A stretch of DNA of 64,000 bases from Mesotoga sp. Brook.08.105.5.1 (GTDB lineage: Bacteria; Thermotogota; Thermotogae; Petrotogales; Kosmotogaceae): the NCBI RefSeq assembly GCF_002752635.1, contig NZ_AYTW01000016.1:62001-126000 (forward strand), read 5' to 3'. Shown in pieces: positions 13,322-59,274 of this stretch (position 1 is the first letter of the stretch; each line of letters begins with the position of its first letter). The translations under genes and the position numbers were made by a program. The notes under the pieces were generated by a model. It saw only the letters and a program-made list of their open reading frames with translations, had not been told where the DNA came from and did not search any database.

Positions 13322-14477
13322 TTCGTATCACCTCAACAGGGCTGAGTTTGGAGGATCTCCTGGCTGGGACCATTGCGGCAATAGTTGAAGCGCCAATGGC
13401 AATGAGCGCGGACAACATTACAAACCCATAACTCAGAGAGATTCTGATGATCGGTTCTCCGTCAGTTCCTACGGCAAAAGTGGAGAACATAATTATAAGC
13501 AGGATTCCGAATGCAATTCCAACTACTGCTCCCACAATGCCGAGAGCGAGTCCCTGAAAGAGAAAAACGAAACTCGTCGTGGAATCCTTAAGTCCCATAG
13601 CTTTCAGGATTCCAATCTGCCTTGATTTCTGGACTACAGTTACTGCGAGCACGCTTGCTATTCCAAGGGAAACGGCTATGATTACGAACACCTGAATCAT
13701 TATGCTTGAGACGCTCTGCCCATTCAGCCCGGAGAGGAGATCTTCGTTCTGAGATTTCCAGTCAGTGACAAGTAAAGCAGACCTCGAAAGACGTTCCAAA
13801 ATGGCAGAGGCGTTTTCATCAGCTCTGAAGACATCGCTCACCTGCATCTCTATCGATGTGACTGCATCACCAAGTTTCCCAACTGACTGAGCGGTGCCAA
13901 TCGTTGAGATCATCCAGTTTTTGTTAAGGCTTGCAATACCCAGATCGAAGACACCGACTACCTTCAGAATCTCAACTGCTCTATCCGGAGTGAAGATTGT
14001 GATTTCTTCTCCAAGGTTCACATCGAGCTCATCCTTAAGACCCTTGCCGATAATGATTTCTCCGTCTCCTTCAGGAAGGCTGCCATCAATGAGGCGACTA
14101 TCCGTCTTGTAAATAACATGTGATTCGGGGAACTGCAGACCTCGGAGCAGAACAGATAAGGTTCTGTCGCCGCTGCTTATGAAGACAGGAACATCTGCGC
14201 TTGCAGAAAGAGCCGTCAGATCTGTTGGCAAATCAAGAGAAGCGATTTCCGAAATTATGCCTTGCCAGTCTTCTACTCTGTTGTTTTCCGATGAGGAGAC
14301 AGTTATCTGCGAAGAGCTTCCGATTGTTGTATCCACCAGGTCTTTTTGGAGTCCCTGGATAAGCGAGCCTATGAATACCTGAACGGAAACGCCTATTGCA
14401 ATTCCCATTACTATGAGAAGAGTTTGGGTCTTGCTGGAAGATAGAAAGCGCATCGCAATTGAAAAAGCCAATCTCAT
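13314..14477 (-). CDS. FtsX/MacB-type ABC transporter permease
   Basis: 387 residues. An N-terminal membrane helix (about 15-40) is followed by a large extracytoplasmic MacB-PCD-like domain (about 45-250), then three C-terminal helices. The helix pattern RQIGILKAMGLKDSTTSFVF and the ending VPARRSSKLSPVEVIRNG are typical of the FtsX family. Genes on both sides overlap it, by 4 bp upstream and 8 bp downstream, so it is translated together with the ATPase as one transporter. One permease per ATPase suggests a homodimer. Confidence 0.9.
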   Translation of the reverse strand: MRLAFSIAMRFLSSSKTQTLLIVMGIAIGVSVQVFIGSLIQGLQKDLVDTTIGSSSQITVSSSENNRVEDWQGIISEIASLDLPTDLTALSASADVPVFISSGDRTLSVLLRGLQFPESHVIYKTDSRLIDGSLPEGDGEIIIGKGLKDELDVNLGEEITIFTPDRAVEILKVVGVFDLGIASLNKNWMISTIGTAQSVGKLGDAVTSIEMQVSDVFRADENASAILERLSRSALLVTDWKSQNEDLLSGLNGQSVSSIMIQVFVIIAVSLGIASVLAVTVVQKSRQIGILKAMGLKDSTTSFVFLFQGLALGIVGAVVGIAFGILLIIMFSTFAVGTDGEPIIRISLSYGFVMLSALIAIGASTIAAMVPARRSSKLSPVEVIRNG

Positions 14478-15127
14478 TTTACATCACCCTTCCCCAGAGC
14501 TAGAATCTCTCTTGGATCTTTCAGGAAAATATCTGCACCGACTTCCTTCCAGTAGTCGGGATTTTTTTCGAATGCATTTCCACCTACGACAACTCTCGAT
14601 TTCCCACCGGCTTCTTTAATTCGCGAAATCATCCTTCGTGTGTTTATTAGGTTGTAGTAGTTTGAAACACTAATCGCAACGTACATTGGACTCAGCTTTT
14701 TCGCAGCCTCAAGGAAGGTGTCCAGCGGGGTATTTGCTCCGACGAATATGGAATTGTACCCAGCGATAGTGAAGATATCCGAAATCATTCTAGCTCCGAT
14801 CTCATGATACTCTTCGGGCGGGCAGAGTACTGCCACTGTCCGATCATTCTTTTCTGATCCATTGTCTCTTCTTTTCTTCACAATATAAGGGAAGCAGCAT
14901 TCCATTACCGTTCTGACAATAGAGCTCCTTATATGTTCGTTCCATATACACAATCTGTCGCTCACGTAGTCGCAATCCCAACTCCTCAATGCGGGTGCAA
15001 GAATATCCAGATACAAATCGATTACTTCAACATTGCCAGACTCAAGCGATTCTATGCACACCATCACTGCCCTCTCTTTATCTTGTGAGTCGAGAGCGCT
15101 TATAAAGTTGCTCTTGATATCGTTCAA
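14474..15127 (-). CDS. Cobalamin (B12)-binding protein
   Basis: 217 residues with a helical N-terminal cap (B12-binding-2-like) and a Rossmann-type B12-binding domain. The cobalamin-ligand region reads CPPEEYHEIGARMISD, with His where the DxHxxG motif places it but Glu instead of the usual Asp. Further motifs are VAISVSNYYNL and VVVGGNAF. Such proteins serve as corrinoid subunits of methyltransferases or as light or B12 sensors; no methyltransferase is adjacent and no DNA-binding domain is present. The start is TTG with SD AAGGAGGG. It overlaps the FtsX-type permease by ATGA, implying tight coupling. Confidence 0.85.
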   Translation of the reverse strand: MNDIKSNFISALDSQDKERAVMVCIESLESGNVEVIDLYLDILAPALRSWDCDYVSDRLCIWNEHIRSSIVRTVMECCFPYIVKKRRDNGSEKNDRTVAVLCPPEEYHEIGARMISDIFTIAGYNSIFVGANTPLDTFLEAAKKLSPMYVAISVSNYYNLINTRRMISRIKEAGGKSRVVVGGNAFEKNPDYWKEVGADIFLKDPREILALGKGDVK

Positions 15128-15137
15128 GATGCCCTCC

Positions 15138-15959
15138 TTATTCTAGTGAATCAAGCATTTTCATATCCTCTCTGTCGAGGACAATCATGCCTGCTTCTAG
15201 ATTTTCTCTCAGGTGTTCAAGCTTGGATGCCTTTGGTATGACCACCACACCATCTTTCCCCAGCAACCATGCAAGCATTACTTGCTGAACAGAGGCCGAG
15301 TATTTTTCAGAGAATCCAGTCAGAAGTTTCTCGGTTGAGGCTTTTAATGCGTTTCTCTTTAGCGGCGAGTATGCGGTTAGGGTAATGCCATGATCTTGGC
15401 AGTATGGTAGAAGCTCATTCATTGCTTGCCGGTCCTCTAGATTGAAGAGAACCTGATTGTTCACAATAGGTTCCTTTGAAATAGATACGGCCTTCTTAAG
15501 GAGCTGCGTGTCGAAATTAGAAACTCCGATATGCCTTATCCGTCCGTTCTTCACTTCTTCATTCATCGCCGAAAGAGTCTCTTCTAGCGGAACTTCAGGA
15601 TTCGGCCAGTGAATAAGATACAGATCAATATAGTCTGTTCTCAGCCTCTTCAGTGTTCTTTCAAGGGCTTTGTGTAAGTCAACACTCCGCAAATGAGTGG
15701 GCCAGACCTTAGATGTGATAAACAATTCTTCTCTACTGAAAATCGAGACTGCCTCTCCAATTATTTCTTCGGTATGGCCACCACCATAGTATTCGGCAGT
15801 ATCTATGTGCTTGTAACCCATTTCAATGGCTCTGGACAATGTGTCAATGTGTTCTCTGTCCCTCGTTTCATCAGGAACGTCTCTTCCTCCGATCTCCCAT
15901 GTGCCTAGACCAATGGCGGGGATTTCTCCTTTGTTATCCTTCAGAGTTCTATATATCAT
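15138..15959 (-). CDS. Aldo-keto reductase
   Basis: 273-residue NADPH-dependent reductase of the aldo-keto reductase superfamily, a TIM barrel. The catalytic tetrad is visible: Asp53, Tyr58 (in DTAEYYGGG), Lys84 (ITSKVWP) and His117 (LIHWPNPE). The cofactor-binding region near the C-terminus is IPKASKLEHLRENLEA. SD GGGGGTGA lies upstream of the ATG. It is the first gene of the operon with the corrinoid protein and the ABC transporter; 10 bases separate it from the next start. Substrate unknown. Confidence 0.93.
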   Translation of the reverse strand: MIYRTLKDNKGEIPAIGLGTWEIGGRDVPDETRDREHIDTLSRAIEMGYKHIDTAEYYGGGHTEEIIGEAVSIFSREELFITSKVWPTHLRSVDLHKALERTLKRLRTDYIDLYLIHWPNPEVPLEETLSAMNEEVKNGRIRHIGVSNFDTQLLKKAVSISKEPIVNNQVLFNLEDRQAMNELLPYCQDHGITLTAYSPLKRNALKASTEKLLTGFSEKYSASVQQVMLAWLLGKDGVVVIPKASKLEHLRENLEAGMIVLDREDMKMLDSLE

Positions 15960-16215
15960 TTAGATCACCCCCATTCCCTAAATTCTACATTAATATTTCG
16001 ATAGTAGTAATCTGCCGATAAATCTAGAACTCCTCCTGGTTAATATAGGTAGACTGCCTTTGATGTATAATAAATGGAACGGGCTGATCACTTTGCAATA
16101 GTGGCTATGAACGGTCTTTCACAAACGGCTTTTCCAGAAATCAGGGTCTACATCTGGTACCTTCCTGTGTTAGTTATGAACAGAATCTAAGAAACCAGAC
16201 GAAGGAGGGAGCGCC

Positions 16216-16539
16216 ATGTACATTGTTTGCGATTTGAGGTACGCTGTTTCTGAAAGTAGATCCACAGAGGCTTTGAAGATGATACTTGAGACGCTCTCAA
16301 AAAAGTTACTTCTGGGAGCCCAAGGTGACACGCTCAACATGAGAGCCGAGACTGAAGATACAATTGAAGTTCAGATCATGGCTCTGAAAGGTTCCTGTTC
16401 CTTTGAAGAAGTGGTGCCAAGGATCAACGAGTACCTTTCACTGATCTCAAGAGCCCTAGAAACAAGTTTTCCAGATTACAGAGTAGTCAGTTCATACATC
16501 TACCCCGATGAAGAAGAGACACCTTACCTACTCTGTTGA
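16216..16539 (+). CDS. Small protein of unknown function
   Basis: 107 residues beginning MYIVCDLRYAVSESRSTEAL, with AAGGAGGGA before the ATG. It appears to be a single small alpha/beta domain (VCDLRYAV; VQIMALKGSCSFEEVV; YRVVSSYIYPDEE). No membrane segment, signal or catalytic motif was recognised. A clear terminator follows at 16546-16576, so it is a one-gene transcript. I do not recognise the family. Confidence 0.75.
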   Translation: MYIVCDLRYAVSESRSTEALKMILETLSKKLLLGAQGDTLNMRAETEDTIEVQIMALKGSCSFEEVVPRINEYLSLISRALETSFPDYRVVSSYIYPDEEETPYLLC

Positions 16540-16545
16540 AGTCAT

Positions 16546-16576
16546 AAAAAGAGGGCCAAGAGCCCTCTTTTTCTTT
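16546..16576 (+). terminator. Terminator after the 107-residue gene
   Basis: AAAAGAGGGC, loop CAAGA, GCCCTCTTTT, then TCTTT. 10-bp perfect stem. Confidence 0.92.
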
Positions 16577-16610
16577 AGAATCAAAACCTCTGTTCGGCAT
16601 AATTGTATGG

Positions 16611-16639
16611 TTGACAAACCAAGCAGCGAAAAGTATAAT
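16611..16639 (+). promoter_or_regulatory. Consensus sigma-70 promoter for peroxiredoxin
   Basis: TTGACA at 16611-16616, a 17-base spacer, and TATAAT at 16634-16639: both hexamers perfect. It lies 45 bases before the peroxiredoxin ATG, so strong constitutive expression is expected. Confidence 0.92.
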
Positions 16640-16683
16640 TATATTGTAGCTAATAAGAATGATTATAAATATGGAGGTGCTTT

Positions 16684-17325
16684 ATGGAGAAAAGGATTCC
16701 ATTGATCGGAGAAGATTTCCCTGAGATGAAAGTCAAGACGACACATGGGGTAATGAACCTACCGGAAGCTCACAAGGGAAAATGGTTTGTTCTATTCAGT
16801 CATCCGGGGGACTTTACACCGGTTTGCACGACCGAATTCGTGGGCTTTCAGAGAAGATATGATAAGTTCAGAGAGTTAAACTGTGAACTCGTAGGTCTTA
16901 GCGTTGACCAAGTCTTCTCTCATATAAAGTGGACGGAGTGGATAGAAGAGAAGCTAGGTGTGAAAATCGAGTTCCCTATTATCGCGGACGAAATGGGCGA
17001 AGTAGGAATGACTCTTGGGCTTATTCATCCTGCAAAGGGAACGAATACTGTCAGGGCGGTCTTCATTGTTGATCCGAAGGGAAAGATCAGAGCTATCCTC
17101 TATTACCCGCAAGAGCTGGGAAGGAATATGGATGAGATTCTCAGAATGGTAAAGGGCTTTCAGGTTGCCGATAAGAATGGAGTGGCTATCCCGGCAGATT
17201 GGCCAAACAACGAGATCATTGGGGATCACGTAATCATTCCTCCCGCATCTGATGTCAAGACTGCTGAAGAGAGAAAGGGCAAGGAAGGTTGTTACGACTG
17301 GTGGTTCTGCCACAAAAGCTTATAG
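16684..17325 (+). CDS. Peroxiredoxin (Prx6/AhpC-TSA type)
   Basis: 213-residue thiol peroxidase that reduces hydrogen peroxide and organic peroxides. The peroxidatic Cys48 is in [11 protein letters not shown]. Two C-terminal cysteines, Cys203 and Cys209 ([10 protein letters not shown]), match the arrangement in archaeal Prx6-type enzymes, where one of them resolves the sulfenic acid. Length and the C-terminal dimerisation domain are normal for that group. SD GGAGGTG precedes the ATG. Expression should be high, given the perfect promoter upstream, which suits oxygen defence in an anaerobe. Confidence 0.95.
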
Positions 17326-17356
17326 AGTAATTGATAGACTGTAAGCAGTTACTACT

Positions 17357-17388
17357 AATGGGATCGGCATTGGCCGATCCCATTTTTA
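17357..17388 (+). terminator. Terminator after peroxiredoxin
   Basis: ATGGGATCGGC pairs with GCCGATCCCAT, followed by TTTT. 11-bp perfect stem. Confidence 0.92.
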
Positions 17389-17570
17389 TAGCTTTATTAT
17401 GCTTAGGATATCTTCAGTGAACTTCTATAATCGGTTTCCTCTGTAGATTGCATAAGATCTCTTGGTTCAAACCATACTCTTAGAGCTAGCTTCTTAGAGT
17501 TATTTCTATCTAATCGATGCTAGATTGACGAGAATGGCAGTGATGGATCCTGATACGGTGTATAGCCTCT

Positions 17571-17598
17571 TTGAACGAAAGAAGAAGTTTGGTATCAT
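17571..17598 (+). promoter_or_regulatory. Probable promoter of the sugar ABC operon
   Basis: TTGAAC at 17571-17576, 16-base spacer, TATCAT at 17593-17598, 36 bases before the start codon. The rest of the gap 17389-17570 shows nothing I can name. Confidence 0.55.
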
Positions 17599-17633
17599 TA
17601 TGGTGAAAAAAATTTCCTTCGGAGGTGGTTAAA

Positions 17634-31603: not shown

Positions 31604-31764
31604 TTTAGTCATCTCCTTTGGTCTGTTGTAGCTGTTAAGACTGATCCAACTCATAAGAGATTATAACGAAAAAGCGGTTTTGTATCTCGTTATAAAATCT
31701 CGCGAATTCCATTTTATTTTAGATGGCAGACAACTATCCGGCGGTTCAAAGAATTTTGGATCAC

Positions 31765-31797
31765 CGTAATGTATCATAATTAAATCTACTCAAGAGA
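31765..31797 (+). repeat. Dispersed 35-bp element, copy 2
   Basis: 33 bp matching copies at 5664-5698 (minus) and 43562-43596 with one mismatch. It lies in the divergent gap between the phosphatase gene and the corA leader, about 30 bases upstream of the leader's -10 element. Confidence 0.85.
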
Positions 31798-31826
31798 TTA
31801 CGAGATAGCAATGATTAATTGCGTGA

Positions 31827-44348: not shown

Positions 44349-47300
44349 CTATTTTTTCTCGACTGAAATCGTTAGATCACCGTTCTTACCAGGTTCGAGC
44401 CATATCGTCCTCAGATTTTCTGAGACAGTATATCCCTTTGGCAAGTCTGTTATTTCGATGGAGTGTTCCCCAAAGACAAGTCCTACCAGTTCGATCATTC
44501 CAAAGACCTGGAATTCGATTCCATCGACATTCAGACTAACCACTTCATACAAATAATCTCCTGTCTCGTCAATCAAAGATATGTTCAGTGAGCTCCTTTG
44601 AGCGAATCCAATCGCGACCAGAGTATCGCCCGTTTCGTTCACTTCTATTGTTTCAATAGGTGTAGTCCGAGAAAACAGTCTTTCAAAGCCCCTGTCCATA
44701 GTCAGACTTGCCCTGCTGACACCGGCAGGAACACCCTCAAGGACCGTTTGGGAACCTATTCTAAAGGGCTTTCCGCCTATGGTTAGAATACCTGAAGCAT
44801 CCAGAAGGGGCTCGTCGCTCTCTCTCAGACCGTTCGCGTTCAGGTCTCTGAAGAGGACCACTTCGATTTTCCGCTGGAAGGCGACACCAAATTCGACATT
44901 CTTCCTCTCTCCCGGCTTCAGCTCTAGCTGTCTGTTCAAAGAACCGGTCGTGATACTGACACCCGAACCGAGCGAGGCCAGATCCAGCGAGATTCTTATA
45001 ATTCCCGGCGAGACCGGGATGGTAAGTGTTCCGTCTTCTGTAAACACTACGTCCTCTCCTATGTTGATAGAGAAGCTCTTCAGGTATTCCTCTTCCTTAT
45101 CGTATGTGCCCGAAGAATTCGAGTCGACAAAGATACGTATGTCCACGTACGCCGGTGACTCCATAAACGGCCAATAGAAGTCTCTGGATCCGTACTCTGT
45201 TACATGAAGCTCCGGAGAATCCTTAAGCAACGAAACAAGTGAATCGGGGTATTCGACGAGTTCGACTCTGTAAAGACCGACGGGCAACTCGACAGATATG
45301 ACTCCATTTTCATCGCTCTCGTACTCTTCTCCATCTATTCTCACCTTGACACTTGTGGGCATCTCACCTGTATCGAATTTTGTATCGAGATCCTTGTCGA
45401 GAAAGAAGTAGAGGTTCAACTTTCCGGTGTTTCTGCTCTTGAAGAACCAGCTGTCGTCTAATTTGATTTTTACTCCAAAGTAGAAACCGTCCCTTCTCAA
45501 ATTTCCAAGGAAGCTCTCCTTTAGCGAACCGAAGCCATAACCAGCGTAGACAACTGTATCCGGCCACAGGGTGAGACCGGCCTGGACTATGAATCTGTTA
45601 TAGAAACCGCCTCTATTGTCGTTTACAAGATATCCGGCACCGGTGATATAGAAGAGATCTGCAAAAGACTTCTCTGCTCTGAGTCCGTTTATTGTGTAAA
45701 CCATGTTTTTCTTGAGATATATCTCCCCGGTCAGAGCGAAGTTGAAGGTTCTATCATACCAGAAGACAGTGTCAAGAGTCAGTCGGCCTTCGGAAGTCGT
45801 TTCTTCTCCGTTTCTGCTTATATAGTAAGCTCCCTCCGCAAGGAGAGCCAGAGGGCTCCTCAACTGGGGAACATATGCGAGGCCGGCCTGGACTTCAAAT
45901 CTGCTGCTCTGGGTCTTCAGGTCGTTCGTGAAGAGAATGTGATATGCCGGTCTAAGCCTATCAAGATCGAGATACTCTCCCCGGCTCTCTATAAGAAATC
46001 GCGACAGGGCGAATCCGGTGTCAAATCTTAGATCTGTATCCAGCCTGAGTTTGAGGGACTCAATCTCACGGTTCTCTATACCTACATGCAGGGCGTAGAA
46101 GTCCTCGGTGTTCGAGCCAACGAGAGTGTGTCTGCCCTGTAAGAGGAAATCCAGATTGACGATGCCCGGAGAATAGGAGGCAGTGTAACCGGCTCCAATC
46201 GAGACCCTGTCCGAAAGAATCGCCTCGAGATCTATCTTCCCCGTATCCAGCGTATAGCCAAAGCCGATAATTGTGGTGAACCTTAGATCCGGCAGAAACT
46301 CTATCTTCTCTTTTGCTGTTATAGAGACCTTGCCAAGTTTCTTCAATATGTATGGAGTCAGCGACAGTTTTACCCTGCCCGCTCCGGAATAGTCAAATAC
46401 TACATCTCCTCCTGCAAAGAGAGACTCGCCGATACCAAAGTCGGTCCTCAAAGAGAGACCCGCGACCGGACTGACTCCTCTAAGTCCCAGACTGATTTCC
46501 CCGCTGAGCCTGGTCTTGTCCAGCGATAACCTCGGTCTTGCGGTGAGCCGGACTTCATTTTCCAGACCGTCCTGCTTATGTATCAGAGACTCCTTGAGCG
46601 AGACTTCAGTCATAACCTGACCTGCTTTGAAGTCTCTCAGCAGCTCAAGCGAGAGGGTTCCCGTCTTAGCCTTTTCATCGAAGCTGTATCCCGAGAGCAG
46701 CTTCAGCTCAAATACCTTTGGATTGAGTTCAAGACTGAAACCGAAGCCTGAAAAGGGTCTGGAATTGCCCGGCGCCTTGAAGTCTCTGTCCAGGTGAGCT
46801 TCCAGATTACCGACGACCGTCTTGCTCACAAACTTCAGCGCCCCTGCGGCCCGAAATCCGAAGTCTCCGGTGTCCGAGGAGACCAGCAGTTCCAACGAAG
46901 GCGAAAGGCCTTCGGAAATGCTTCCGTCCACCTTCAAAGACGCAAACCGGTAGCCTTCACTTAGGCCTCTGAATAGTCCGGTCAGGGTATACTTCCAGCC
47001 CGAAGAAGAGTAAGTTAGATACGCCATCATGTCGAGATCTCCCGGCGAGGTCGAATCGGTAGAATAAACTGCCTCGATCCACACCGGGTTGAAGTCCAGA
47101 TCGAAATAAGGAACAGGTTTACTGAAGATCAGCAGTCTATTCGAATTGTAGAGGGTGTAGTCTTCTCCCCTTCTCAAAACCCGTCGAGTGATTATCTCGC
47201 CTTCGCTGTCTCTGGTGATTAGGCTTATAGTCTCGCCCCCCGAAGCCGGTACTTCAGACAGGTAATAAGGACCTCGTATACCCTCTCCCCTGAACTCCTC

Positions 47301-50300
47301 GGTCCTCTTTCCCCTGTAAACTGGATTCACGAAGAGTTTGTAGGAAAAGACATCGCCGCTGTATTCGCTGGAAAGACCCGTTCCACTTGACAGAAAGCCC
47401 GTGCTTCCGCGGGTTTCAAACGTATAGTCTCCAAGTTGAACGTTGAAATGCCCGATTTCATAGCGCAGAAAATACGGGCGAGATGAGGGAGCTAGCGTAC
47501 CCTTTATCGATTCGTCGCCATGGGTGATATACGTATCGAAATCGGCCGACGATTCTTCACCGAAACGGAAGGTAAGCAAACCTTTATCGATATTGAGGCG
47601 ACCGAAAACACCGCCTTCAAAGGACAGCGAACGATCTTTTAAGCTGTACTGAAGCTGTGTGCTTCCTGTTATAAGCGGTGGACGCGATTCGACTGCATAC
47701 TCCAGACGAACATCTTTAGACAGATCACCGTACCTTACAGAGAAGTCTACTGCATAAGCCTGAGCCGTGGGCTTCAATTTAAGTTTAGAGACGCCATTTT
47801 CGAGCTTCAGTCTCGTTCCGTCCCAGTCGGAGGGTTCCAGGACGATATGCGAATCGAGACCTTCAATAATGAGAGTTCCACCGACCGATGATGGGACGCC
47901 CCTTTCATCGACCAGCGAGATTACGACCAGTACCTCTGTCACACCGTCGGCGGTGAGTATAAGTGGCTCGGTCGAGACTCTGAATTCAAAGGGCTCTCCG
48001 GAGAGATATACCTCTATCTCCTTGCTGCCTTTTGCAGTTCCATCCTGCCAGTCTAGCCTTATTCTATTCCTTCCGGGATTCAACTTCACATTGAAGTACT
48101 TCACAAAAAGCCAGAGGCCGTCTGCGTCGTTGGCCTTCTGACCTATCTGGCTCTCGGGAACGACAATATCGTTTACGTAGAGAGTGTGGCGGCTTTCTAT
48201 GGGCATTGCCACCTCTACCATGAGTCTGTCAACGCCGACAAATTCCTGTCCGTTCAACGGTGTGACTATATAACCGTAATCGGAGAACATGGAGGGATCT
48301 AGACTCTGATTTCCAGAGACTATTAGCGACGCGGCGTCAAAGCCTTTGAGAGTCAGCGGATTTCTATATGTTATCGTCTCAACGATTCTCTCCCTGTGGA
48401 TCAGCGGTATATCTATGATAGTGTACATTCCCGGCAGCGTCTCGATCATGAAAGATCTGTCGTCTCCAAGCGATCGGCTATCCTGATTCGGCGAAAGCCT
48501 GTAAGGCGTCACGTCAATATCTACCTTGACGATGTGGAGCCCCGGTTTCAGCCTGTCGAAATGAAACAGTCCGTCCTTATCCGTAACGACGAAGGAACCG
48601 TCCTGAAGGAGCAGTCTGACGGGCAGAGGTTTGCTGTCATCTTTATCGTAGAAGCCGTTTCCATTTTCATCTACATAAATCCTGCCTATGATTCCAGTGC
48701 CCGTATTCATAGGCCTGAAGACGCGCACGTCGACGACAGAGGGTTCTGTTACCACTTCCGTGCTGTACTCTTCGGATAAAATCGTACCGATAGCCCTGAC
48801 CATGTTTTTCAGGAATTCTCCGGTAAACTCGTCGAGTCTCAGACGGTAAACTACCCTGGACTTCTCTCCAGGCTTCAGGTCTCTAAGATTATCGAAGATC
48901 AGCATATCTTCAAGTATCAGAGGCTCTACGGGTTCGCCGTCGATGCTTCCGCTTCCCTCGACGTAAGAGGTCCCCGGCGGGATTCTATCCTCCAGCCTGA
49001 GTTCAGTTACAGTTGCTATGGTACTGGGGTTTGACACCTCGATAGTGTAGGTAATCTCCGACCCCAGCTCAACGATCGAAGGAGAGGCCAGCTTCACGAG
49101 CTCCAGACTACCGTGGAAGATCTTCACGGAGACCCTTTCTGAGTCTTCGAAAGTTCCATCGCCGGAGACGGTTGCCGTGTTCTCAATTACGGTCCCTTCA
49201 GCGAGACCGTCAACCGTAGTGCATTTAAAGGTAATCTCCACACTCTCCAGAGGATCAAGAGAGTCGAACTCGACCGTGAGTATTCTCTCTTGACTGTTGA
49301 ATGAAACCGTAGCCTCTTTTGAAACCTCAATTTCGTACGGAGCCGAAAGGAGCGAGGAAATAGGATCGCTAACCGTGATCTTTCCGGTCGAACTTTCAGA
49401 CTCGTTCTCCACCGAGATAAGGAAACGCACTTCGGCCTTTGGCATTAAAAGCGAGCTCGAGAGAACGACTTTGGATATGCTTAGACTGTCTGACTTCCTG
49501 ATATGTGGAATTATATCTATCGTTCTGTTCTCCTCGTTGCCCATTACGGTTTTGGGTATGAACTTAAAGCCTTTCTCGAAATTACTGCCGCTAACGCCTT
49601 CGGGAATAGTTGCCTCCAGTATTATATCTACCTCTTGCCCGGGAGCAACGACCCCGACATCCACATAACCGCTTCCGTCTGTGTCCGTCAGAGGAACTCC
49701 CGTATCGTCTTTGAAGACGAATCCCCAGCCGTCTAGCTGAAAGTTGGCACTTTCGATAAGCAGATCCATTACACCCGGCGCGTTTCCGTCGTTCTTCAGA
49801 GTATGACGGAATATGACAGTATCACCATCGAAAACCGTAATAGTGCTGACCGTAGTGTCCTCAGGAGTCATTTCCGGCGCGTCCGGGTATCCGAAAGGAC
49901 CTAGAAGAGGGACTCCCAGAGCCGGAATGGTGAAATCGACAGTATTTGTCTTTGAGGACCATGTTGTTCCAAGCCTCGAGTAAGAAACACTGGCGGTGTT
50001 GTAGCGCCTGCCTGCCGCAACGTTCTTTGGGAAGAAGACATCGAAAGATATTTCGACAGACTGCCCTGGACTAACCGGACCGAAGGTGAGCTCGAAGCCC
50101 TTTATCTCTTCATCGTTCTGTGGCGGCTCGGGCAACCAATCCAGACCATCGAAGTAGCGGGCGGAGAAATCGTAATTTGAAAAGAGAGAAGCGGAATCGA
50201 GAACTCCGTCAACCAGGTTGCCCCCGTAGTCTATGAAGTCTTTGAGAACGAGGCTGTCCAATTCGTACTCCGAATTGTTTGTGAGGCTCACCGAGAAGGA

Positions 50301-50945
50301 CTGCGAGCTACCCGGGAGAACGGTCTCCAGGAGTCTGGATTTTGTGGAGACGACAATCTCCTTCTCTTCCACCTTTATCTGGGCTATGTTGTCGTCATCG
50401 GTGTTGCCGGCCGGGTCTATTCCGACTATGTTGATAAAACCTTTATCGGTCAAATCACCGGTCTCTTCGAGGATAACTCTTACTATCAGCTTTTTTGAAC
50501 CATCGATTTCGAGGTCGACACTATTTACCGGTGTTTTTGCCTGTCCCGAGATACCCTCTTCTCCTTCATCGAGATAAATACCGATAACTCTAAGCACCGG
50601 GGTCCCCGAGGGGCCGTCTCCAAAGATCTGAGAGGCTGAGAGCGAGATGGTTGTCGGGCTGTTTCCAAAATTTCGTGCCACGTAGTTTAGATCAACTGTG
50701 CTTCCTTCGAAACCCTCTCTTTCCTGACCGGGTTTCTCGAATGTCCCGTCGGGCTTTATCGTGAAACCATAGACGGGCAATACCGTAGTGACGACCTTAT
50801 CCGAGAAGATCGTAATGTGATTGCCATCGATATCTCTGTATCTGGCAAAGGCAAAGTTCTCTATCTTAGAACCGGCAGCCGGTGCCGGGACAATCACAGT
50901 TGTCACAAAGATTAATATAAGAAGCATTACGATCTTCCTGCGCAC
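44349..50945 (-). CDS. Giant surface protein: DUF11 repeats, SdrD-like domains and a predicted beta-barrel
   Basis: 2198 residues. Signal peptide ending PAPAAGS. Residues 25-70 (FARYRDIDGNHITIFSDKVV, TTVLPVYGF) are shared with the 830-residue protein upstream. DUF11-type domains fill about 200-730. An SdrD B/carboxypeptidase-regulatory domain is near 752 (YVDENGNGFYDKDD). Around residue 1225 comes VLRRGEDYTLYNSNRLLIFS, a motif found in large outer-membrane proteins. From about 1090 to 1830 the sequence is dense alternating beta strands, as in an outer-membrane barrel. Three more SdrD-like, calcium-type repeats close the protein (FLDKDLDTKFDTGE; VDSNSSGTYDKEEE; RDLNANGLRESDE). Last gene of the operon. 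Barrel assignment is inference. Confidence 0.85.
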   Translation of the reverse strand: MRRKIVMLLILIFVTTVIVPAPAAGSKIENFAFARYRDIDGNHITIFSDKVVTTVLPVYGFTIKPDGTFEKPGQEREGFEGSTVDLNYVARNFGNSPTTISLSASQIFGDGPSGTPVLRVIGIYLDEGEEGISGQAKTPVNSVDLEIDGSKKLIVRVILEETGDLTDKGFINIVGIDPAGNTDDDNIAQIKVEEKEIVVSTKSRLLETVLPGSSQSFSVSLTNNSEYELDSLVLKDFIDYGGNLVDGVLDSASLFSNYDFSARYFDGLDWLPEPPQNDEEIKGFELTFGPVSPGQSVEISFDVFFPKNVAAGRRYNTASVSYSRLGTTWSSKTNTVDFTIPALGVPLLGPFGYPDAPEMTPEDTTVSTITVFDGDTVIFRHTLKNDGNAPGVMDLLIESANFQLDGWGFVFKDDTGVPLTDTDGSGYVDVGVVAPGQEVDIILEATIPEGVSGSNFEKGFKFIPKTVMGNEENRTIDIIPHIRKSDSLSISKVVLSSSLLMPKAEVRFLISVENESESSTGKITVSDPISSLLSAPYEIEVSKEATVSFNSQERILTVEFDSLDPLESVEITFKCTTVDGLAEGTVIENTATVSGDGTFEDSERVSVKIFHGSLELVKLASPSIVELGSEITYTIEVSNPSTIATVTELRLEDRIPPGTSYVEGSGSIDGEPVEPLILEDMLIFDNLRDLKPGEKSRVVYRLRLDEFTGEFLKNMVRAIGTILSEEYSTEVVTEPSVVDVRVFRPMNTGTGIIGRIYVDENGNGFYDKDDSKPLPVRLLLQDGSFVVTDKDGLFHFDRLKPGLHIVKVDIDVTPYRLSPNQDSRSLGDDRSFMIETLPGMYTIIDIPLIHRERIVETITYRNPLTLKGFDAASLIVSGNQSLDPSMFSDYGYIVTPLNGQEFVGVDRLMVEVAMPIESRHTLYVNDIVVPESQIGQKANDADGLWLFVKYFNVKLNPGRNRIRLDWQDGTAKGSKEIEVYLSGEPFEFRVSTEPLILTADGVTEVLVVISLVDERGVPSSVGGTLIIEGLDSHIVLEPSDWDGTRLKLENGVSKLKLKPTAQAYAVDFSVRYGDLSKDVRLEYAVESRPPLITGSTQLQYSLKDRSLSFEGGVFGRLNIDKGLLTFRFGEESSADFDTYITHGDESIKGTLAPSSRPYFLRYEIGHFNVQLGDYTFETRGSTGFLSSGTGLSSEYSGDVFSYKLFVNPVYRGKRTEEFRGEGIRGPYYLSEVPASGGETISLITRDSEGEIITRRVLRRGEDYTLYNSNRLLIFSKPVPYFDLDFNPVWIEAVYSTDSTSPGDLDMMAYLTYSSSGWKYTLTGLFRGLSEGYRFASLKVDGSISEGLSPSLELLVSSDTGDFGFRAAGALKFVSKTVVGNLEAHLDRDFKAPGNSRPFSGFGFSLELNPKVFELKLLSGYSFDEKAKTGTLSLELLRDFKAGQVMTEVSLKESLIHKQDGLENEVRLTARPRLSLDKTRLSGEISLGLRGVSPVAGLSLRTDFGIGESLFAGGDVVFDYSGAGRVKLSLTPYILKKLGKVSITAKEKIEFLPDLRFTTIIGFGYTLDTGKIDLEAILSDRVSIGAGYTASYSPGIVNLDFLLQGRHTLVGSNTEDFYALHVGIENREIESLKLRLDTDLRFDTGFALSRFLIESRGEYLDLDRLRPAYHILFTNDLKTQSSRFEVQAGLAYVPQLRSPLALLAEGAYYISRNGEETTSEGRLTLDTVFWYDRTFNFALTGEIYLKKNMVYTINGLRAEKSFADLFYITGAGYLVNDNRGGFYNRFIVQAGLTLWPDTVVYAGYGFGSLKESFLGNLRRDGFYFGVKIKLDDSWFFKSRNTGKLNLYFFLDKDLDTKFDTGEMPTSVKVRIDGEEYESDENGVISVELPVGLYRVELVEYPDSLVSLLKDSPELHVTEYGSRDFYWPFMESPAYVDIRIFVDSNSSGTYDKEEEYLKSFSINIGEDVVFTEDGTLTIPVSPGIIRISLDLASLGSGVSITTGSLNRQLELKPGERKNVEFGVAFQRKIEVVLFRDLNANGLRESDEPLLDASGILTIGGKPFRIGSQTVLEGVPAGVSRASLTMDRGFERLFSRTTPIETIEVNETGDTLVAIGFAQRSSLNISLIDETGDYLYEVVSLNVDGIEFQVFGMIELVGLVFGEHSIEITDLPKGYTVSENLRTIWLEPGKNGDLTISVEKK

Positions 50946-50964
50946 CTAATCACCTCGCTGTCCT

Positions 50965-51035
50965 CATCTCTGTGATCTCCAAAGAGCTGTCCCCGAGATC
51001 ACAGAGATGAAGAGCCATGGCCCGAAGGCCATGGC
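50965..51035 (-). promoter_or_regulatory. Structured intergenic RNA: long inverted repeat and UUCG hairpin
   Basis: A perfect 15-bp inverted repeat (CATCTCTGTGATCTC at 50965-50979 with its complement at 50995-51009) and a separate 9-bp hairpin, GCCATGGCC with loop TTCG (minus strand) at 51014-51035, fill the 97-bp gap between two operon genes. There is no U-run, so processing or mRNA stability is more likely than simple termination. Confidence 0.75.
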
Positions 51036-51042
51036 AATTAGA

Positions 51043-53535
51043 TCAATAACCGTCTATCAATACCGGGAAGACAACCGTGCCTGACTGACCGGCCGTCAAT
51101 GTTCCGATTATCCACTTGACGGTGGTTACAGAGGCAAGAGTGCTTTTGTCGAATGTTGCCCAGTCCTCCCATGTCACTCCGTAATCGGTGCTAACCTGAG
51201 ACGGTTCGGTGAAGTTGACCGTGTCGGTTACTATTACAGGATCAAGAGAGGTGTAGAACGGAATCGTATCGTAGATGATCAGATTATTGATTGGTTCCGT
51301 TCCGGTGTCGGCATAGGTTATAGTGTAGATCAGCTGTTCGCCGGGCTTTGCATCGGTCTTATTGACGGCCTTCTCCAGAGTGACCTTTTCCGATACAACG
51401 ACCGTGATATCTATAACAGTTGCCGTAACGTTAGTATCCTCCTGAACCTCGGCCTTCAGATAAGCAACATCAGTCACGCCAAGAGGTTCATCACTCGGGA
51501 CCTCAAGCCTGAATATTCCTGTTATGCTAACGCCGGGCTCGAGTGTCCAAGTTGCATCCAGATTTACTGGGTTTCCGCCCTGAAGGAAAGTGAAGTCCCA
51601 GCCTCTCGTCGAGCTTGGATAGAGCTTTACAGTCACCGCTACATTACCCGTGTTTGTCAGAGTGTGCTCGTAGTCGATATTCTGCCCGGGTGCGGCCGAT
51701 CCATTTCTGGATGGCAAAAGTGTAATGTGCCTGACAGCATTCACAGTGATCGTGTTTATTTGCGAGTCCTCAACTGTGGGTCTCGTCAAAGAAGTCGCAA
51801 AGAACTCCACGGGAACTGCTACTCCTGTGTAAAGGGCTCCTTCGGGGACGGTTACTCTCGCTATGATTCTGATCCCACTGTTTGGAGATACCTGACCAGT
51901 ATTTGTTATAGGTATCATCTCATCTGGATCGAGAACTCCGTTTCCGTTGGTATCGATATAGAACCTCACCGTATAGCCATCAACAAGATCGGCCGAGAGG
52001 CTGAAAGTATCGCCAGCATCGGAGTTATTTACGACGTCAAGCGGGAAATATGCATAAGAGCCGGGATCGGCGTCTTTGTTTACCGAAGTCTTATCTACAG
52101 TAGTATCGGTGGCCGTTCCAGACATATTTCCGATCTTTACGGACGGGAAGGTTATTGGCTCGACCATGTCTGTTGTTGTATCGAAAGCGGCTGGAGATAT
52201 CGAGGAGATCGCTTTCACGAGAGCGGTAATCGAGGTGACACCTACATCAATATCTGCGGGTATGAAGATCTTGAGTGTAATGTCGAAGGTCTCTCCCGGT
52301 GCAAGCGGACCGGTGTCCTGCATCCCGTTGTCGTCGGTATCTGGTAGTGGAGTAAGGTTCTCGGTGAAAAAGGAGATAGCGACAACATTATCCAGGCCCG
52401 CAGGAAGAACTCCAGCGATTGTAATGTTTATTATGTCCGTTGAGAGACCGGCATTCTTTACTGTATTAGTGAACTCTACCAGAGTACCGGCAACACCGGG
52501 CTTTATCGTGATATCGTTCGGATCTTCCGCTTCGGGATTGTCTTTGGGACCGATCCAGACCTTAGTCGTCTCGTTGCCCGGTCCCCCAACCATGATAGTG
52601 GAAACGTTTGAGCTCCTGCTCACAGTCTCCAGTGCAGTCGTCTTGTAAGTCATCGTCGCCACGTTCTCGATGATACTTGCAAGAGTATTGTCTTTCACCT
52701 TCACTCTCAGTCTAATCCGGAAACTCGAGCCTGCATTAAGACTGGCGATATCCAAGGTCACGGTATTGCCTGTTACATCAACAGTCATACCTGCCGGTAC
52801 TTTGTCAAGGAAGCCAAGATATTCAAGACTTGCCGGCAGAACGTCGATTATGGTTATGTCTGAAGCTGCCTTGTTACCTACGTTAGCTCCGGAAATCGTG
52901 TAAACGACTTCGTCGCCGGCCTTGACTTCCTGCGGGGTGGCAGATTTGAAGAGAGTCAGCACGGCATCGTTATAGACCGTTGTGCGCGCCGCATTGTTGT
53001 GATCGAAAGCATTTACCGGATCGCTTGCCGAGTCAACATCAAGATAGACTGTGGCGGTGGTTCCGGCCGCAGCCGCGCTCGGCACCCTGTACCTGACTAT
53101 GACGTACCTGAAGTCACCCGATGGTATCGGGATTGTTTCTTTCCAGAGCTCTTCACCGGGGTCAACGACGCCATTGCCATTTTCGTCGTAGAAGACTTCG
53201 ATATTTTGCGGAGTAAATGTCGATGCGGTGTCGATATTCACAATCGTTTTGAAAGTATCGACAGTGTTTGCGAGATTGTCGATCCTGAACTGAAACTGCA
53301 TAGTCTGTCCGGCGGCACCTGGTTGTTCTATTAGATCGGGTGTGACAAGTACCGAATAGACCGGTAGTACCGTGGTTATTACCTGGTTCGATAGGATTGT
53401 TCTGGTTACTCCCCTGCCATCGGTATATGTAGCCGCGGCCTGGTTCTTGATTTTGGTGCCGGCGGCAGGTGGTGCGGCAATCGCGGCAACAGCTATCATG
53501 ACCGCGAGGAGCACCAGTAGAAGTTTCTTACTCAT
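51043..53535 (-). CDS. DUF11 repeat surface protein
   Basis: 830 residues. Signal peptide (MSKKLLLVLLAVMIAVAAIA), then KIKNQAAATYTDGRGVTRTI and NQVITTVLPVYS, the N-terminal module shared with the 2198-residue protein. The rest is repeated beta-sandwich DUF11-type domains, several carrying a calcium-binding-like loop (YDENGNGVVDPGEE; TDDNGMQDTGP; IDTNGNGVLDPDE). There is no anchor or catalytic motif at the C-terminus, which ends in VFPVLIDGY. Likely exported and held at the surface by interaction with a partner. Begins 21 bases after the stop of the preceding gene. Confidence 0.85.
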   Translation of the reverse strand: MSKKLLLVLLAVMIAVAAIAAPPAAGTKIKNQAAATYTDGRGVTRTILSNQVITTVLPVYSVLVTPDLIEQPGAAGQTMQFQFRIDNLANTVDTFKTIVNIDTASTFTPQNIEVFYDENGNGVVDPGEELWKETIPIPSGDFRYVIVRYRVPSAAAAGTTATVYLDVDSASDPVNAFDHNNAARTTVYNDAVLTLFKSATPQEVKAGDEVVYTISGANVGNKAASDITIIDVLPASLEYLGFLDKVPAGMTVDVTGNTVTLDIASLNAGSSFRIRLRVKVKDNTLASIIENVATMTYKTTALETVSRSSNVSTIMVGGPGNETTKVWIGPKDNPEAEDPNDITIKPGVAGTLVEFTNTVKNAGLSTDIINITIAGVLPAGLDNVVAISFFTENLTPLPDTDDNGMQDTGPLAPGETFDITLKIFIPADIDVGVTSITALVKAISSISPAAFDTTTDMVEPITFPSVKIGNMSGTATDTTVDKTSVNKDADPGSYAYFPLDVVNNSDAGDTFSLSADLVDGYTVRFYIDTNGNGVLDPDEMIPITNTGQVSPNSGIRIIARVTVPEGALYTGVAVPVEFFATSLTRPTVEDSQINTITVNAVRHITLLPSRNGSAAPGQNIDYEHTLTNTGNVAVTVKLYPSSTRGWDFTFLQGGNPVNLDATWTLEPGVSITGIFRLEVPSDEPLGVTDVAYLKAEVQEDTNVTATVIDITVVVSEKVTLEKAVNKTDAKPGEQLIYTITYADTGTEPINNLIIYDTIPFYTSLDPVIVTDTVNFTEPSQVSTDYGVTWEDWATFDKSTLASVTTVKWIIGTLTAGQSGTVVFPVLIDGY

Positions 53536-53555
53536 AAACTCACCTCCTGTGTGTT

Positions 53556-54065
53556 TTAATTGGACACCTTAACTCTGTAAAGCACTTTCAATATATCTGA
53601 TGGCATAAACTGTCTTTCATAGACCCACATGATGTTTGTATAAGCCGTAGGATTGACCAATCTCCTTACTGCCATCCCCCCCCTCACTTCTTCAAAGAAT
53701 AACGGTGGTTTTCCGAAAGTCTCCCCTCCATCGAAACTGAAGTAGAGCTCTAGTTCTCGACTCTCCCAGTCCAGATGTTCACGCTTCTCTCCAGTTGCGC
53801 TTCCCCTTATATAGAAAGTGCCTTCGGGGATCAATGCGATCATCTGGAGACCTTCGATCGTAGATTCCGATACGTTTTCATATGTGAGAACATAAAGAAT
53901 CTCATCACCCGGAAAGACCTCGTCGGGTTCTTCGTATGTCTCTGTCGCACTCTGAGAATCCCAGACCTTATAACTTTCGATACTGACCTTTATAGGTTCC
54001 TCGTTGGCAAACCCCAGTAAAAAGAGTGCTGAAAGAAAAACGATTGTAAGGAAACACTTCTTCAT
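53556..54065 (-). CDS. Small DUF11-like exported protein
   Basis: 169 residues from ATG 54065 (SD GGGAGGGGA). Signal peptide (MKKCFLTIVFLSALFLLGFA) followed by one DUF11-type domain (EVFPGDEILYVLTYENVSES, MIALIPEGTFYIRGSATGEK, ILKVLYRVKVSN). It starts 17 bases after the preceding stop and ends 21 bases before the next start, so it is clearly part of the surface operon. Its single domain could cap or bridge the larger partners. Confidence 0.85.
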   Translation of the reverse strand: MKKCFLTIVFLSALFLLGFANEEPIKVSIESYKVWDSQSATETYEEPDEVFPGDEILYVLTYENVSESTIEGLQMIALIPEGTFYIRGSATGEKREHLDWESRELELYFSFDGGETFGKPPLFFEEVRGGMAVRRLVNPTAYTNIMWVYERQFMPSDILKVLYRVKVSN

Positions 54066-54081
54066 CTGTATCCCCTCCCGA

Positions 54082-57000
54082 TTATCTTCTAAGTTTCGTT
54101 TTGAATATAAGCCAGCCAGAGGAGCCTGGCTGCAACGCACCGAGTATCTTTGTGATATTAACCGTCAGAACTCCCCCCTCGCAGAAGGCCCAATCAAGAT
54201 TAGCGTCGCCACCGTCTTCGGCGACCAGCAGATGCTCGCTGCCATCGACAGAGAGAATCACGTTACCGTGTGAACTGCCCATAGAATAACTGCTCTGAAG
54301 TAACTGCAAATCTCTATCCAGAGGATCGGTAATCACGACCGAAGGAATCGAAAGAGTTCCATTGTTGGCAAATGAGATCCTGTACTCGATTATCTCCCCG
54401 GGCTTTCCTTCAGATGACAATCCCCAGTCACCCGAGATCGAGAAATTGCGGGTCTCTTTGCGTATCGAGAGGCCCTCGGCTCCAACGGTAATTGTATCGT
54501 AAGTCTCGGCGCTATCGCTTCCCGCAGAATTAGACCAGTCTTGAACTGCCCTGACTTTTATTGCGTCGAACGTGCCGCTGATGGCTTCAGTGGGTATGTT
54601 GACTGTTAATCTAAAATAGTACCTTGCCGGAGACCTTGCGATATTGTTATCCCACAGACCCAGCACATTCCCTGCCGAATCGAGCTCATAAACAGCGATA
54701 CTAAAGCCTTGAGATGAAATGGTCTCCAGAGAAACGCTACCATAAGTTGCAACGAACAGAGAATGATCGATACTGACGGTGCTTCCCGGAAGTCCCGAAA
54801 CGGTGTTTATACCTTCGATGAGCAGTCTCTTCACATCTGCAAAATTGTTGAAGGCAAAAGAATCAACACTCGAGTTTATCGTTATAGTATTTCTCTCTTC
54901 AAGAGGGGCAGACCCGTCGCTATCATGGTCGCCCGTTGATGTATATGCCGGAAGATCCGTCTCTCTTATTACGATTGGATAGACAGGATCTCCGGAGACG
55001 AAGAATCTATAAAGACCGTCCTGGTCTGTGTATCTTGTAAATTTGTCCGAACCGTTTGTCAGTGTAACCAACACTCCCGGTATTCCCGCCTCTCCCGGAT
55101 CTCTTGTAGCATTATTGGCCTGAGAGATGACGCCTGCACCGGTGTCATCGAAGACAAAACCTTTCACAATAAAACCTTTGAAATCACCGAAATCGGCCGT
55201 TTTGTTTACTGTATCTACTATCACTTCAACCCAGTTCGGAGTCGTGGATATGTATCCAACAGGATCAGATCCTTCAGTTGATGAATTGAAGAGATTCTGG
55301 GCGTCTTCCACAACTCTGAAAGTTCCCTGCGAAACATCGAAGCTATAAAAGCCTTCATTGTCCGTCTGAGTGTAAGACTGGAAAGTCCAGCCGCTTCCAT
55401 CAAACTTCCAGAGCTTCAGCCTGACTCCCGCAATACCGGGTTCGGCATAGTCGCGGGTCCTGTTGAAATTGAGATCTTCATAGACGTAACCGCTGATCTT
55501 CAGACCCGAACCAACTGATTTATTCGGACCGAACTCGGAAGTACTGTAAGCAAAAATACCGAGAACGTTACTGAAGCTTTCGTGACGGGTTATAGCTGTT
55601 ATGACTTTTGTGTCCTCAGAGACAGGGGAGACATTGCCCTCAAAGTTTCCCTGAGAATCTACTGTAAATGACCCGATATACTTTATTCCTTCACCGTAGT
55701 CCTCTCCCGAATAAGAGTCTCCGTCCCCTGCTCTTGCAGAGTATATCTCAACGACAGAACCGGCGAAGACTGCGCTGGGAGTGTTCTGACCTACAAATCC
55801 CTGAATAGACAGAGCGCTACCGCTTCGCGTTGCCAGAGCTATTACAGGGTGATCGATACCCGTATTACCATAGCTTTCATTGAGAAGCCCGTCGTTTGGA
55901 TTCACACCCTCAATCATGTCCGAAGATGGCGCTCTGAGAAGATCAATCGCCAGGCCGCGATTATCACCAAAAGAGTTTAGCGAAAAGTCGCCATAACTTG
56001 AATCGCTGCTAACCCTTATACCGGAACCGCCAAAAGAGCCGTTGATGATTGACTTTCTGATAACCGCTCCCACAGAATCGTTGAGAGATATGGCCGAAGC
56101 GGTTGAATCGACGATCGTTGTATTCTCCAGAAGCGTCAGTTTGTCTCCCTGTGTATAGACACCGTTTCCGTGAGTCACGCCGGCGTGGCTTCCGCCATTC
56201 GCTTCTACGATAGAGTTTCTTAAAGTAACTGAACTCGCCGGAGAGACTATCGAAACGCCATTTCCGTCGGTTCCCGAAGGACCGATGCCGTTGTCCAGTA
56301 CAATTACCCTGTTTACATCTATGGTATTTCCAGTCAGCAGAAGACCGGAGCCGTTGTAAGCGATATACGAGTCTTTTAGAGTTCCGCTTGCGTTGATAAC
56401 CAGACCGTATCATCTGTTTAGATTGCTATCTTCAGGTCTAGATCCATCGGCTCTCGCCCCGCTCACAATATTATCAAGATTGAAGTTCTGGCCATTAATG
56501 ATTACCGGAGCGGTAGCGTCGCCGACAGTGCCGCCACCGTTAAAGAAGGCGATGTTCTTCAACGAGAATCCTCCCGCGGTTGCCGAAGTTCTCAGAACAT
56601 ACTCTAGACCGTTACAGTCTATCTCGATCTCTTTGCCGTTGAGTTGGGGTATGGCAATTTTATCGATTCCGGCAAGACCGCCCCCAAAGTTTGAGACGTT
56701 ACTGTTTATGATGTTCCCCTGCACAGTGTATACAGTGCCATCAATGGTTGTCTGGGTGTCGGTAATGTCCGGCAAGGCTGCCTGAGTCTGTATCGTCCAC
56801 CAGCTGTTGCTTCCGAAAGATGAATTTTGAGGAGTCTGCATGACGAATCTCGCCGCATTGGCTCCGGCAATTGCATTTGAGTTCAGCACGAACTGTCGCA
56901 GCGTTCCCTGATTGCCGGCAACTCTGAAGCCATTATCTCCAGTGTCGTTAGTGTTGACAATCACGTTGAACGAGAAGCCATGATCGATCCCGCTTACGGA

Positions 57001-59274
57001 TTGAGTGCTTTCCGAAAGGTCAACTGCAGACAAATGCTGAAAGGTGCTCTGACTGACGGACTTACTCCAGGTCGCGAATCTGTCTGAGATTGAGGGATCT
57101 AAACCGCCAAAGGCCTGTACATCATTGTAAGCACCGTCTTTGAACTCGCGTTTGAAGGTCTGTTCGGCCCAGGGAGTCGCAGGTGGAAATCCGGAATTGA
57201 GTGCTGTCGGAGCGACACTCTTCGAATCCACAACGACGTAGTATCTATATTGAGGCAAAGGTCCGAAAGAGTAGTTGCCATTGGAATCGGTATTAGTCTC
57301 CGCGACAAACACGTCACCATTACTGATCGCGTCGTTACCGTCGGCCTCTCTGTAAATTCTCACCCTAACGTTAGTCTTTGGCAGATCGACACCCGAAACA
57401 AAAGGCCCACCATTGTCTCCTCGGTCTTCAAAGGCTTTTCCGGAGACTGTCAGCGAGATACTGCTACAAGTATTTTCCAAGAGCGCTACTTCTCTGAGTT
57501 CGCCGCTATTGTACTGCACATACGAGTCCATTGTATTGCCTTGATCGTCTCTCACTACTGCCTTAATTATGTAGTCTCCCTGAGGAACCTGAGAATTATT
57601 CCACTGCAACCTCCAGGGGTTAAACTGGTCCACGGCCGTTGCGTCTCCGATCAAGACCCACTCGAAACCGTCGTCGGCAACTCCGTTACCGTTATAGTCA
57701 AAATAATAGTAGAACTTAACGCTTGTTACCGTCGAACGTATTACTCCTGAGACGGCGGTATGCGAATCGAGCACAAAAGCCTCGATCGTGGAAGGACCGC
57801 AGCCGGAAACGCTGATCCTGGATGTCAGAGGAATCTGCGAAATATGCCCACATGAATTCACAAGGTCTCCAAAGGGGATAGGTTTATTAAGAGCCATCGT
57901 ATAGGTCCCCTGGAATGCAAGGTCTTTCTGTAAAGGATTGTTAGTGTTCGAACTTGTAGTGAACGCAAGCTGGAAGATATCGTCTGCAGTGAGTTTCGGT
58001 CCGCCTCTGGAAGTAGCGTCTAGAGCTGCCAGGGGTACCTGGATATCCAGAAGATAAACAGTGCCGAGCGAGGGATCTACGTACTTGATCACTCTGGTCC
58101 TTCCAAAATCCCATACCAAAGGCGAGGGATCGCGGTCCCAGTCTGCCGGTCTACCGGGTTCGCCGTCGGCGTTTGTCGGACTAATCAAGTGCTTTGCGCT
58201 GTCCTGTTTCCAGATCAGATCATTATCGTAGAGATACTGGTCTTTGATTGTGCTGAAATATACCTTTATATCGTCGGGCGCAATTCCTTGGTCGGTTCCG
58301 TCGAGTTCAATCGCGAAGTCTCTATAACCGTCGCCGTCTATATCTATAAGTATGTTCCATGTAGAAGATTTATAGGGAGTCCCAGAACCTTGTAGTTGTA
58401 GAGGGTTTTTGGCAAGCACCATTCTGAACATGAGATTGTCGCAGTCGGCGAAGAACTGTATCGCAGGCAGATTATGAGAACTGACGAAATCTGCTTCCTG
58501 CCTGGGACTGGTCCCGCCATTAGAATTGTCAGTATTGCCTGAAGCGTCGTAAATCGGGTCTCTCGAGTAAGTGTAAGGGATCCACTCGTTGGTTGCCGAA
58601 GTGCTTTCATTCACTCGAACATAGTCAAATTCGACCTGTGTCGGTCCCCAGGATCTGAGACCAACTCTTCCGTTCATGAAAGGGTTATCGCTGTCAGTGT
58701 ATCTCAAAACCTCAATTCCATCGACAAACATAGTGAATGTATTACCCATGGCCACTATGGTTACTTCATGCCATTCCAGCCAGTCGAAATCTGCGGCAGG
58801 CGTTCCCGAGGCTAGAACGCCGGACTCTCTACCATCTGTGACCTTTCTCAATGCGAATTTATTCCCAAGTCCCGGATCGACCTGAAAAGCGTAGGCGTTT
58901 ATGTTCCTGGCAGTACCTGTAGCCCTGACATATATCGCATAACCGGAGCCGCCGGACTGAATCCCGTCGGTGATCCTGCCAAAGCTCCTCACAACGTAAT
59001 CGCCCCAGCCTTCGTTCCCATCAAGTATCGCTCTGCGCTCGCCAGAAGCGGTAAGCGATAGAATACCGCCGGCTACATTCCAGGAATTCGTAGGGTAGTA
59101 ATCTATAAGGTCGTTGAGACTGTTGAACTCATAAGAAGCTAGCGGCTGGCTTGGATTATCCGGCCAGGGAGCGGGAAATCCCACCGGGTCTACGTAGCTT
59201 GTTATAGCTAGAGACAGGCTAAAAACTCCCGTCAGGAACAGGGCCATTGTAAAAAGCAGCCTCTTTTCCATCAT
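54082..59274 (-). CDS. Large surface protein (about 1730 residues) with one in-frame TGA
   Basis: From ATG 59274 the frame runs 954 codons to a TGA at 56410-56412 (after SNLNR). It then continues uninterrupted in the same frame (YGLVINASGTLKDSYIAYNG) for 775 codons to 54082. Part 1: signal peptide, a laminin-G/concanavalin-like domain (residues 45-220), a further beta domain, an SdrD-like repeat (AFEDRGDNGGPFVSG) and a right-handed beta-helix-like region beginning near 860. Part 2: the rest of the beta-helix, two SdrD B-type domains (YVYEDLNFNRTRDYAEPG; FDDTGAGVISQANNATRDPG) and a final DUF11 domain. The stop falls inside the beta-helix, so the two parts were one protein. First gene of the surface operon. 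Confidence 0.8.

Follow-up and report, generated by a model that had tools for sequence, protein, structure and literature searches.

The window, a stretch of 64,000 nucleotides from Mesotoga sp. Brook.08.105.5.1, is part of a 134-kb contig in a 2.99-Mb Thermotogota genome. It contains four co-directional genes, all on the minus strand: gene 1 (54082..59274), gene 2 (53556..54065), gene 3 (51043..53535) and gene 4, the giant (44349..50945). The intergenic gaps of 16 (54066-54081), 20 (53536-53555) and 97 bases (50946-51042) agree with those reported in the earlier note, and all four proteins start, by inspection, with Sec-like signal sequences. The four genes are supported as a real operon-like unit.

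Gene 1, a putative tip or adhesin, spans 1730 codons including an internal stop. Its product comprises a signal peptide, a LamG-like domain (3keto-disac_hyd, aa 62-221), SdrD-like repeats, a right-handed beta-helix and a DUF11-type C-terminal domain. The stop is an in-frame TGA at codon 955 (56410..56412, minus strand), which stands between stretches of 954 and 775 codons that share one frame, while the counterparts in two related genomes are single open frames of 1736 aa (G023) and 1716 aa (G029). As four relatives (G023, G024, G026 and G029) carry arginine at this position, recoding of TGA was ruled out, and the codon is either a nonsense mutation of the window genome or a sequencing error. 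If gene 1 is truncated in this genome, its full product is probably dispensable here.

Gene 2 encodes a small secreted protein of 169 aa, which the family profile describes as a lone domain of the DUF11/SdrD kind, while gene 3 encodes a secreted protein of 830 aa with multiple DUF11 domains, as found by domain and profile searches. The gathering score for DUF11 (PF01345, 24.6 bits) is passed by gene 3 (66.7 bits) and gene 4 (61.2 bits), with gene 2 scoring below it; the NCBIfam match of gene 2 to TIGR01451 (E 0.0065) is also below the cut-off. The statement that all four proteins carry DUF11 or SdrD-type repeats thus holds for genes 1, 3 and 4, which score above or near the curated cut-offs, but gene 2 misses them. 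The N-terminal module said to be common to the 830- and 2198-residue proteins was recovered, as one profile matches both (E 9e-45 and 5e-43, respectively) and a direct search aligned the two modules over about 430-450 residues at 27-28% identity (E about 1e-16); in gene 3, this module contains AGTxIxNQAxAxY. The last domain of gene 3 resembles gene 2. A C-terminal sorting domain common to all partners was considered and left unproven, as internal DUF11 domains often score like the C-terminal ones.

The giant, of 2198 aa, is composed of a DUF11/SdrD arm (aa 25-830, 48456..50873), Ig-like domains, a predicted outer-membrane barrel (aa 1090-1835, 45441..47678) and SdrD/Ig-like repeats (aa 1840-2198, 44352..45428; weak matches and inspection), all on the minus strand. 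The central run of alternating strands that had been described is indeed there: among the parts of the protein, residues 1090-1835 have the highest mean alternating-amphipathicity score, and their count of strong windows gives a z of 3.8 against shuffles, although this score distinguishes known barrels of E. coli from controls only imperfectly. The predicted barrel ends in a porin-type terminal-strand motif, GFYFGVKI (aa 1820-1827, 45465..45488, minus strand). Such a motif (GxYLRLxF-like) is found at the end of the barrel profile in 18 of 23 homologues, against a background of 6 of 229 internal windows and 5.7% of shuffles, and it also lies near the end of the protein in most barrel homologues. 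The giant has the module GPYxL...RGxDYxLxNxxxLxF (about aa 1218-1296; 47058..47294, minus strand) in common with SprA-like outer-membrane proteins; over 232 columns, hhalign relates the giant's family to these proteins with a probability of 98.8% (E 9e-17). One stand-alone barrel homologue scores above the Porin_4 gathering score, while the window's own barrel matches no barrel family in Pfam and is linked to these via its relatives. Against solved structures, the barrel profile retrieved nothing but Ig-like domains of glycosidases and, weakly, a porin (E 0.02). Viral contigs scanned with A2 and with L061 yielded no additional barrel sequences, and a more distant alignment (A3) is too poorly conserved throughout to offer a search stretch. 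Taken together, the central part of the giant looks like an outer-membrane barrel: homology and the terminal-strand motif speak for the barrel proposed in the earlier note, but the single-sequence fold prediction, with a pLDDT of 33, adds no structural support. Loci L101-L106 encode an outer-membrane-type family of about 1100 residues whose profile has the 232-column module in common with the giant; it has no Pfam match above cut-off, and most of its members match the SprA model weakly.

With regard to orientation, three relatives of the giant (L067, L094 and L096) carry OmpA domains ahead of the barrel, above the gathering score, and one (L064) has a weak OmpA match after it (E 0.00085). As OmpA domains bind peptidoglycan, which lies in the periplasm, the simplest assumption is that both arms flanking the barrel are periplasmic as well, such that the giant's own repeats are probably off the cell surface. 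The display role that had been assigned to the giant is thus narrowed: its DUF11 arm is probably periplasmic, and only the separate partners are candidates for being displayed.

Judged by homology, the gene set is not a peculiarity of Thermotogota, nor does the cassette look like a quirk of one genome. A core set of a small lone-domain protein, a DUF11 protein, a DUF11/SdrD arm and a barrel recurs in Thermus, Deinococcus, two cyanobacteria, Pacificitalea, Acinetobacter and further genomes, mostly with the gene order retained. Three profiles (small protein, N-terminal module, barrel) mark this core in Deinococcus QL22, Synechococcus NIES-970, Kovacikia, Pacificitalea, Acinetobacter, G363, G383 and G206. 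A protein search revealed relatives on plasmids of Thermus, Deinococcus, cyanobacteria and proteobacteria, and the loci that were read contain the same gene set; in Thermus and Deinococcus, the cassettes reside on megaplasmids. Broken copies are found in Deinococcus radiodurans, in Novosphingobium and, for the DUF11 gene, in Acinetobacter. The cassette at L060 (Deinococcus radiodurans MP1) seems, in the R1 record, to have frame breaks both within the arm gene and ahead of the barrel.

The closest comparison is with TTH_RS10905-TTH_RS10925 on plasmid pTT27 of Thermus thermophilus HB8, where a small protein, a DUF11 protein, a DUF11/SdrD arm, a barrel and a large end protein follow one another in this order. 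Compared gene by gene with Thermus, gene 2 gives an E of 1e-11 and gene 3 one of 1e-56; the giant matches the arm gene with residues 8-867 (E 1e-36) and the barrel gene with residues 891-1381 (E 2e-15), and gene 1 matches the end protein with its C-terminal half (E 9e-21). Unlike in the window, the giant of Thermus, and that of Deinococcus, is split into two genes at about aa 870-890, the boundary of arm and barrel. By these matches, the window's giant is thus the counterpart of two genes that are distinct in other bacteria. The Thermus genes are annotated as hypothetical or DUF11 proteins, with no named system. Gene 2, which has homologues in Thermus (WP_081481500.1) and among the partners in Deinococcus, cyanobacteria and proteobacteria, is a marker of the cassette: the full-length small protein is present in 8 of 390 genomes, all eight of which have a strong barrel match, the barrel itself occurring in 12. 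Outside the genus, the five genomes with the small protein all fall within the six with the barrel, out of 380 (hypergeometric P 9e-11, a value that assumes independent genomes, an assumption that holds only roughly). In two genomes, G345 and G364, the small protein and the barrel are not adjacent in the data. We found no account of the four-gene set in the literature, which is weak evidence as few subscription journals were covered.

Within Thermotogota, our analysis considered 103 genomes, and the giant was found only in the window's genus, in seven of its ten genomes, with gene 3 in three of these seven. All four genes occur in order in G000, G023 and G029, while G024, G026 and G027 have matching pieces on small contigs, cut at contig ends. 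In G028 (L043:1834-3501), all that is left is a remnant of the giant's last 587 residues, broken in frame, which adjoins a gene that also borders the operon of G029; this is a case of operon decay in place. A contig scan also revealed a locus of 94% identity in 'Thermotogales bacterium Thermo_02', seen as one near-identical fragment. The operon is absent from G025, a genome that is 99% complete, and from the 93 Thermotogota genomes outside the genus. This distribution bears on the suggestion that the operon serves to build the toga. While the proteins are of an envelope type and the phylum is toga-bearing, the toga genes ompA and ompB occur across the order (PMC3387000), and an operon restricted to one genus of the phylum does not fit such a role, which we regard as highly improbable. 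The earlier note had also asked whether the genes occur independently in relatives; this was not observed in any complete genome of the genus, though in some distant genomes the barrel stands alone.

The interior of the operon appears to have a different ancestry from its surroundings. Between positions 44772 and 59125 (14.35 kb, minus strand), most of the operon shares 91-96% identity with G023 and about 60% with G029, while the two longest aligned stretches of the surrounding genome share 67-71% with G023 and 81-84% with G029; the giant gene's final 200 bases are nearer to G029. The simplest reading of these identities is that a distant lineage of the genus donated the interior, a foreign allele having replaced that of the resident operon through recombination within genes 1 and 4. 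Contamination is an unlikely source of the block, as the contig has native flanks and a mosaic end. The neighbours of the operon differ among G000, G023 and G029. Surface loci are often imported laterally, and a replaced block would mean that the locus is exchanged between lineages as are other surface antigens. In G025, the genes for B12-binding proteins of the kind that adjoin the operon are two diverged neighbouring copies (L112:3331-7555 and 13390-17630). Elsewhere in the window, at 31754-31800, a stretch of 35-45 bp has matches of 86-97% at many scattered sites in related genomes and is a dispersed repeat.

We propose, with a probability of about one half, that the operon's products form an outer-membrane platform for exporting and/or anchoring its own DUF11 surface proteins. 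The giant would form the beta-barrel, which would be preceded by long DUF11/SdrD/Ig arms in the periplasm and followed by repeat domains, a topology that we infer from homology and motifs. The small, the multi-DUF11 and the LamG/beta-helix proteins would pass the inner membrane via ordinary signal peptides and then be exported and/or anchored at the cell surface by the barrel. There, the partners may build a fibre or coat based on DUF11, at whose binding end the LamG/beta-helix protein probably sits; export and fibre formation are the more conjectural parts of the proposal. The mode of action could be like that of an usher or an SprA-type translocon, in that a large barrel with periplasmic arms would serve a few dedicated, co-encoded beta-sandwich subunits. 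The block replacement fits a surface locus and is counted in favour of the platform, which is weakened by the existence of barrel-only homologues, the truncation of gene 1 here and the lack of a Pfam barrel-family match. A broader and more tentative proposal is that the cassette, found in at least four phyla and partly on plasmids, may be an outer-membrane secretion or assembly system distinct from ushers and T9SS, in which the giant barrel exports DUF11 subunits with the lone-domain protein as an assembly factor.

A serious, though less probable, rival is that the barrel and its periplasmic arms only tie a surface coat to the outer membrane or cell wall, as SlpA-like connectors do, with the partners being exported otherwise. 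The peptidoglycan-binding OmpA domains of the relatives, a weak, sub-threshold hit of one homologue to the SlpA_C barrel (E 9.6e-07) and the host range of Deinococcus and Thermus all agree with such an anchor, but the window's own giant lacks an OmpA or SLH domain in the Pfam scan, and a dedicated small protein in a conserved gene order suggests more than a tether. Pilus-like assembly, with the small lone-domain protein as chaperone or pilin and the giant as the usher of a donor-strand system, would explain why a small dedicated subunit, a single domain of beta-sandwich type like the last domain of the DUF11 protein, accompanies a giant barrel. We consider it unlikely, as Pfam scans of all gene products found no usher or PapD-like chaperone domain, and as the model of gene 2 from a three-row alignment is a low-confidence one (pLDDT 52) that retrieved no similar fold at E<=0.001. 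It is slightly more doubtful still that the four genes encode surface adhesins that lie side by side and form no joint machine. Many genomes do have barrel-only and DUF11-only loci (the barrel without the other cassette genes, e.g., in L097, L099, L107 and L108), but the order kept across phyla, the fusion and fission of the giant, the co-occurrence of the genes and the block transfer uphold the functional link claimed by the earlier note.

When the proposed platform is compared with known systems, the resemblance to the T9SS protein SprA/Sov (TIGR04189) consists of a GPYxL...GxDYxxDYxxGxIxF module beside a large barrel and passes through SprA-like proteins of about 1100 residues, themselves weak on TIGR04189 (23-33 bits). 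The giant has no match to TIGR04189 even at E<=10, where membership is taken as more than 200 bits, and NCBIfam detects no T9SS C-terminal sorting domain in genes 1-4. The likeness to chaperone-usher systems is a functional analogy of a large barrel, periplasmic domains and dedicated co-encoded beta-sandwich proteins. Pfam scans gave no C-terminal barrel domain of autotransporters (type V), and while intimin and invasin have an N-terminal barrel followed by Big_1/Invasin Ig domains, the Ig-like domains of the giant precede the barrel. SlpA-type connectors share a barrel and a periplasmic link to peptidoglycan, the latter seen in the giant's relatives, but the window's operon has no SLH domain and is a multi-gene DUF11 set. 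A paper on type 11 secretion that appeared relevant was set aside, as it deals mainly with DUF1194 and mentions DUF11 in passing. DUF11 domains do form surface filaments in the grappling-hook proteins GhpA/GhlA, as beads on a string (PMC13319060), yet these are single proteins of about 6000 residues, whereas the window's operon has several shorter proteins and a predicted barrel.

In diderm bacteria, DUF11 proteins are widespread and for the most part unexplained, and the cassette links them to a dedicated, predicted outer-membrane barrel. As the cassette is also present in the genetically tractable hosts Thermus thermophilus and Deinococcus, the export or retention of DUF11 proteins at the cell surface becomes testable.
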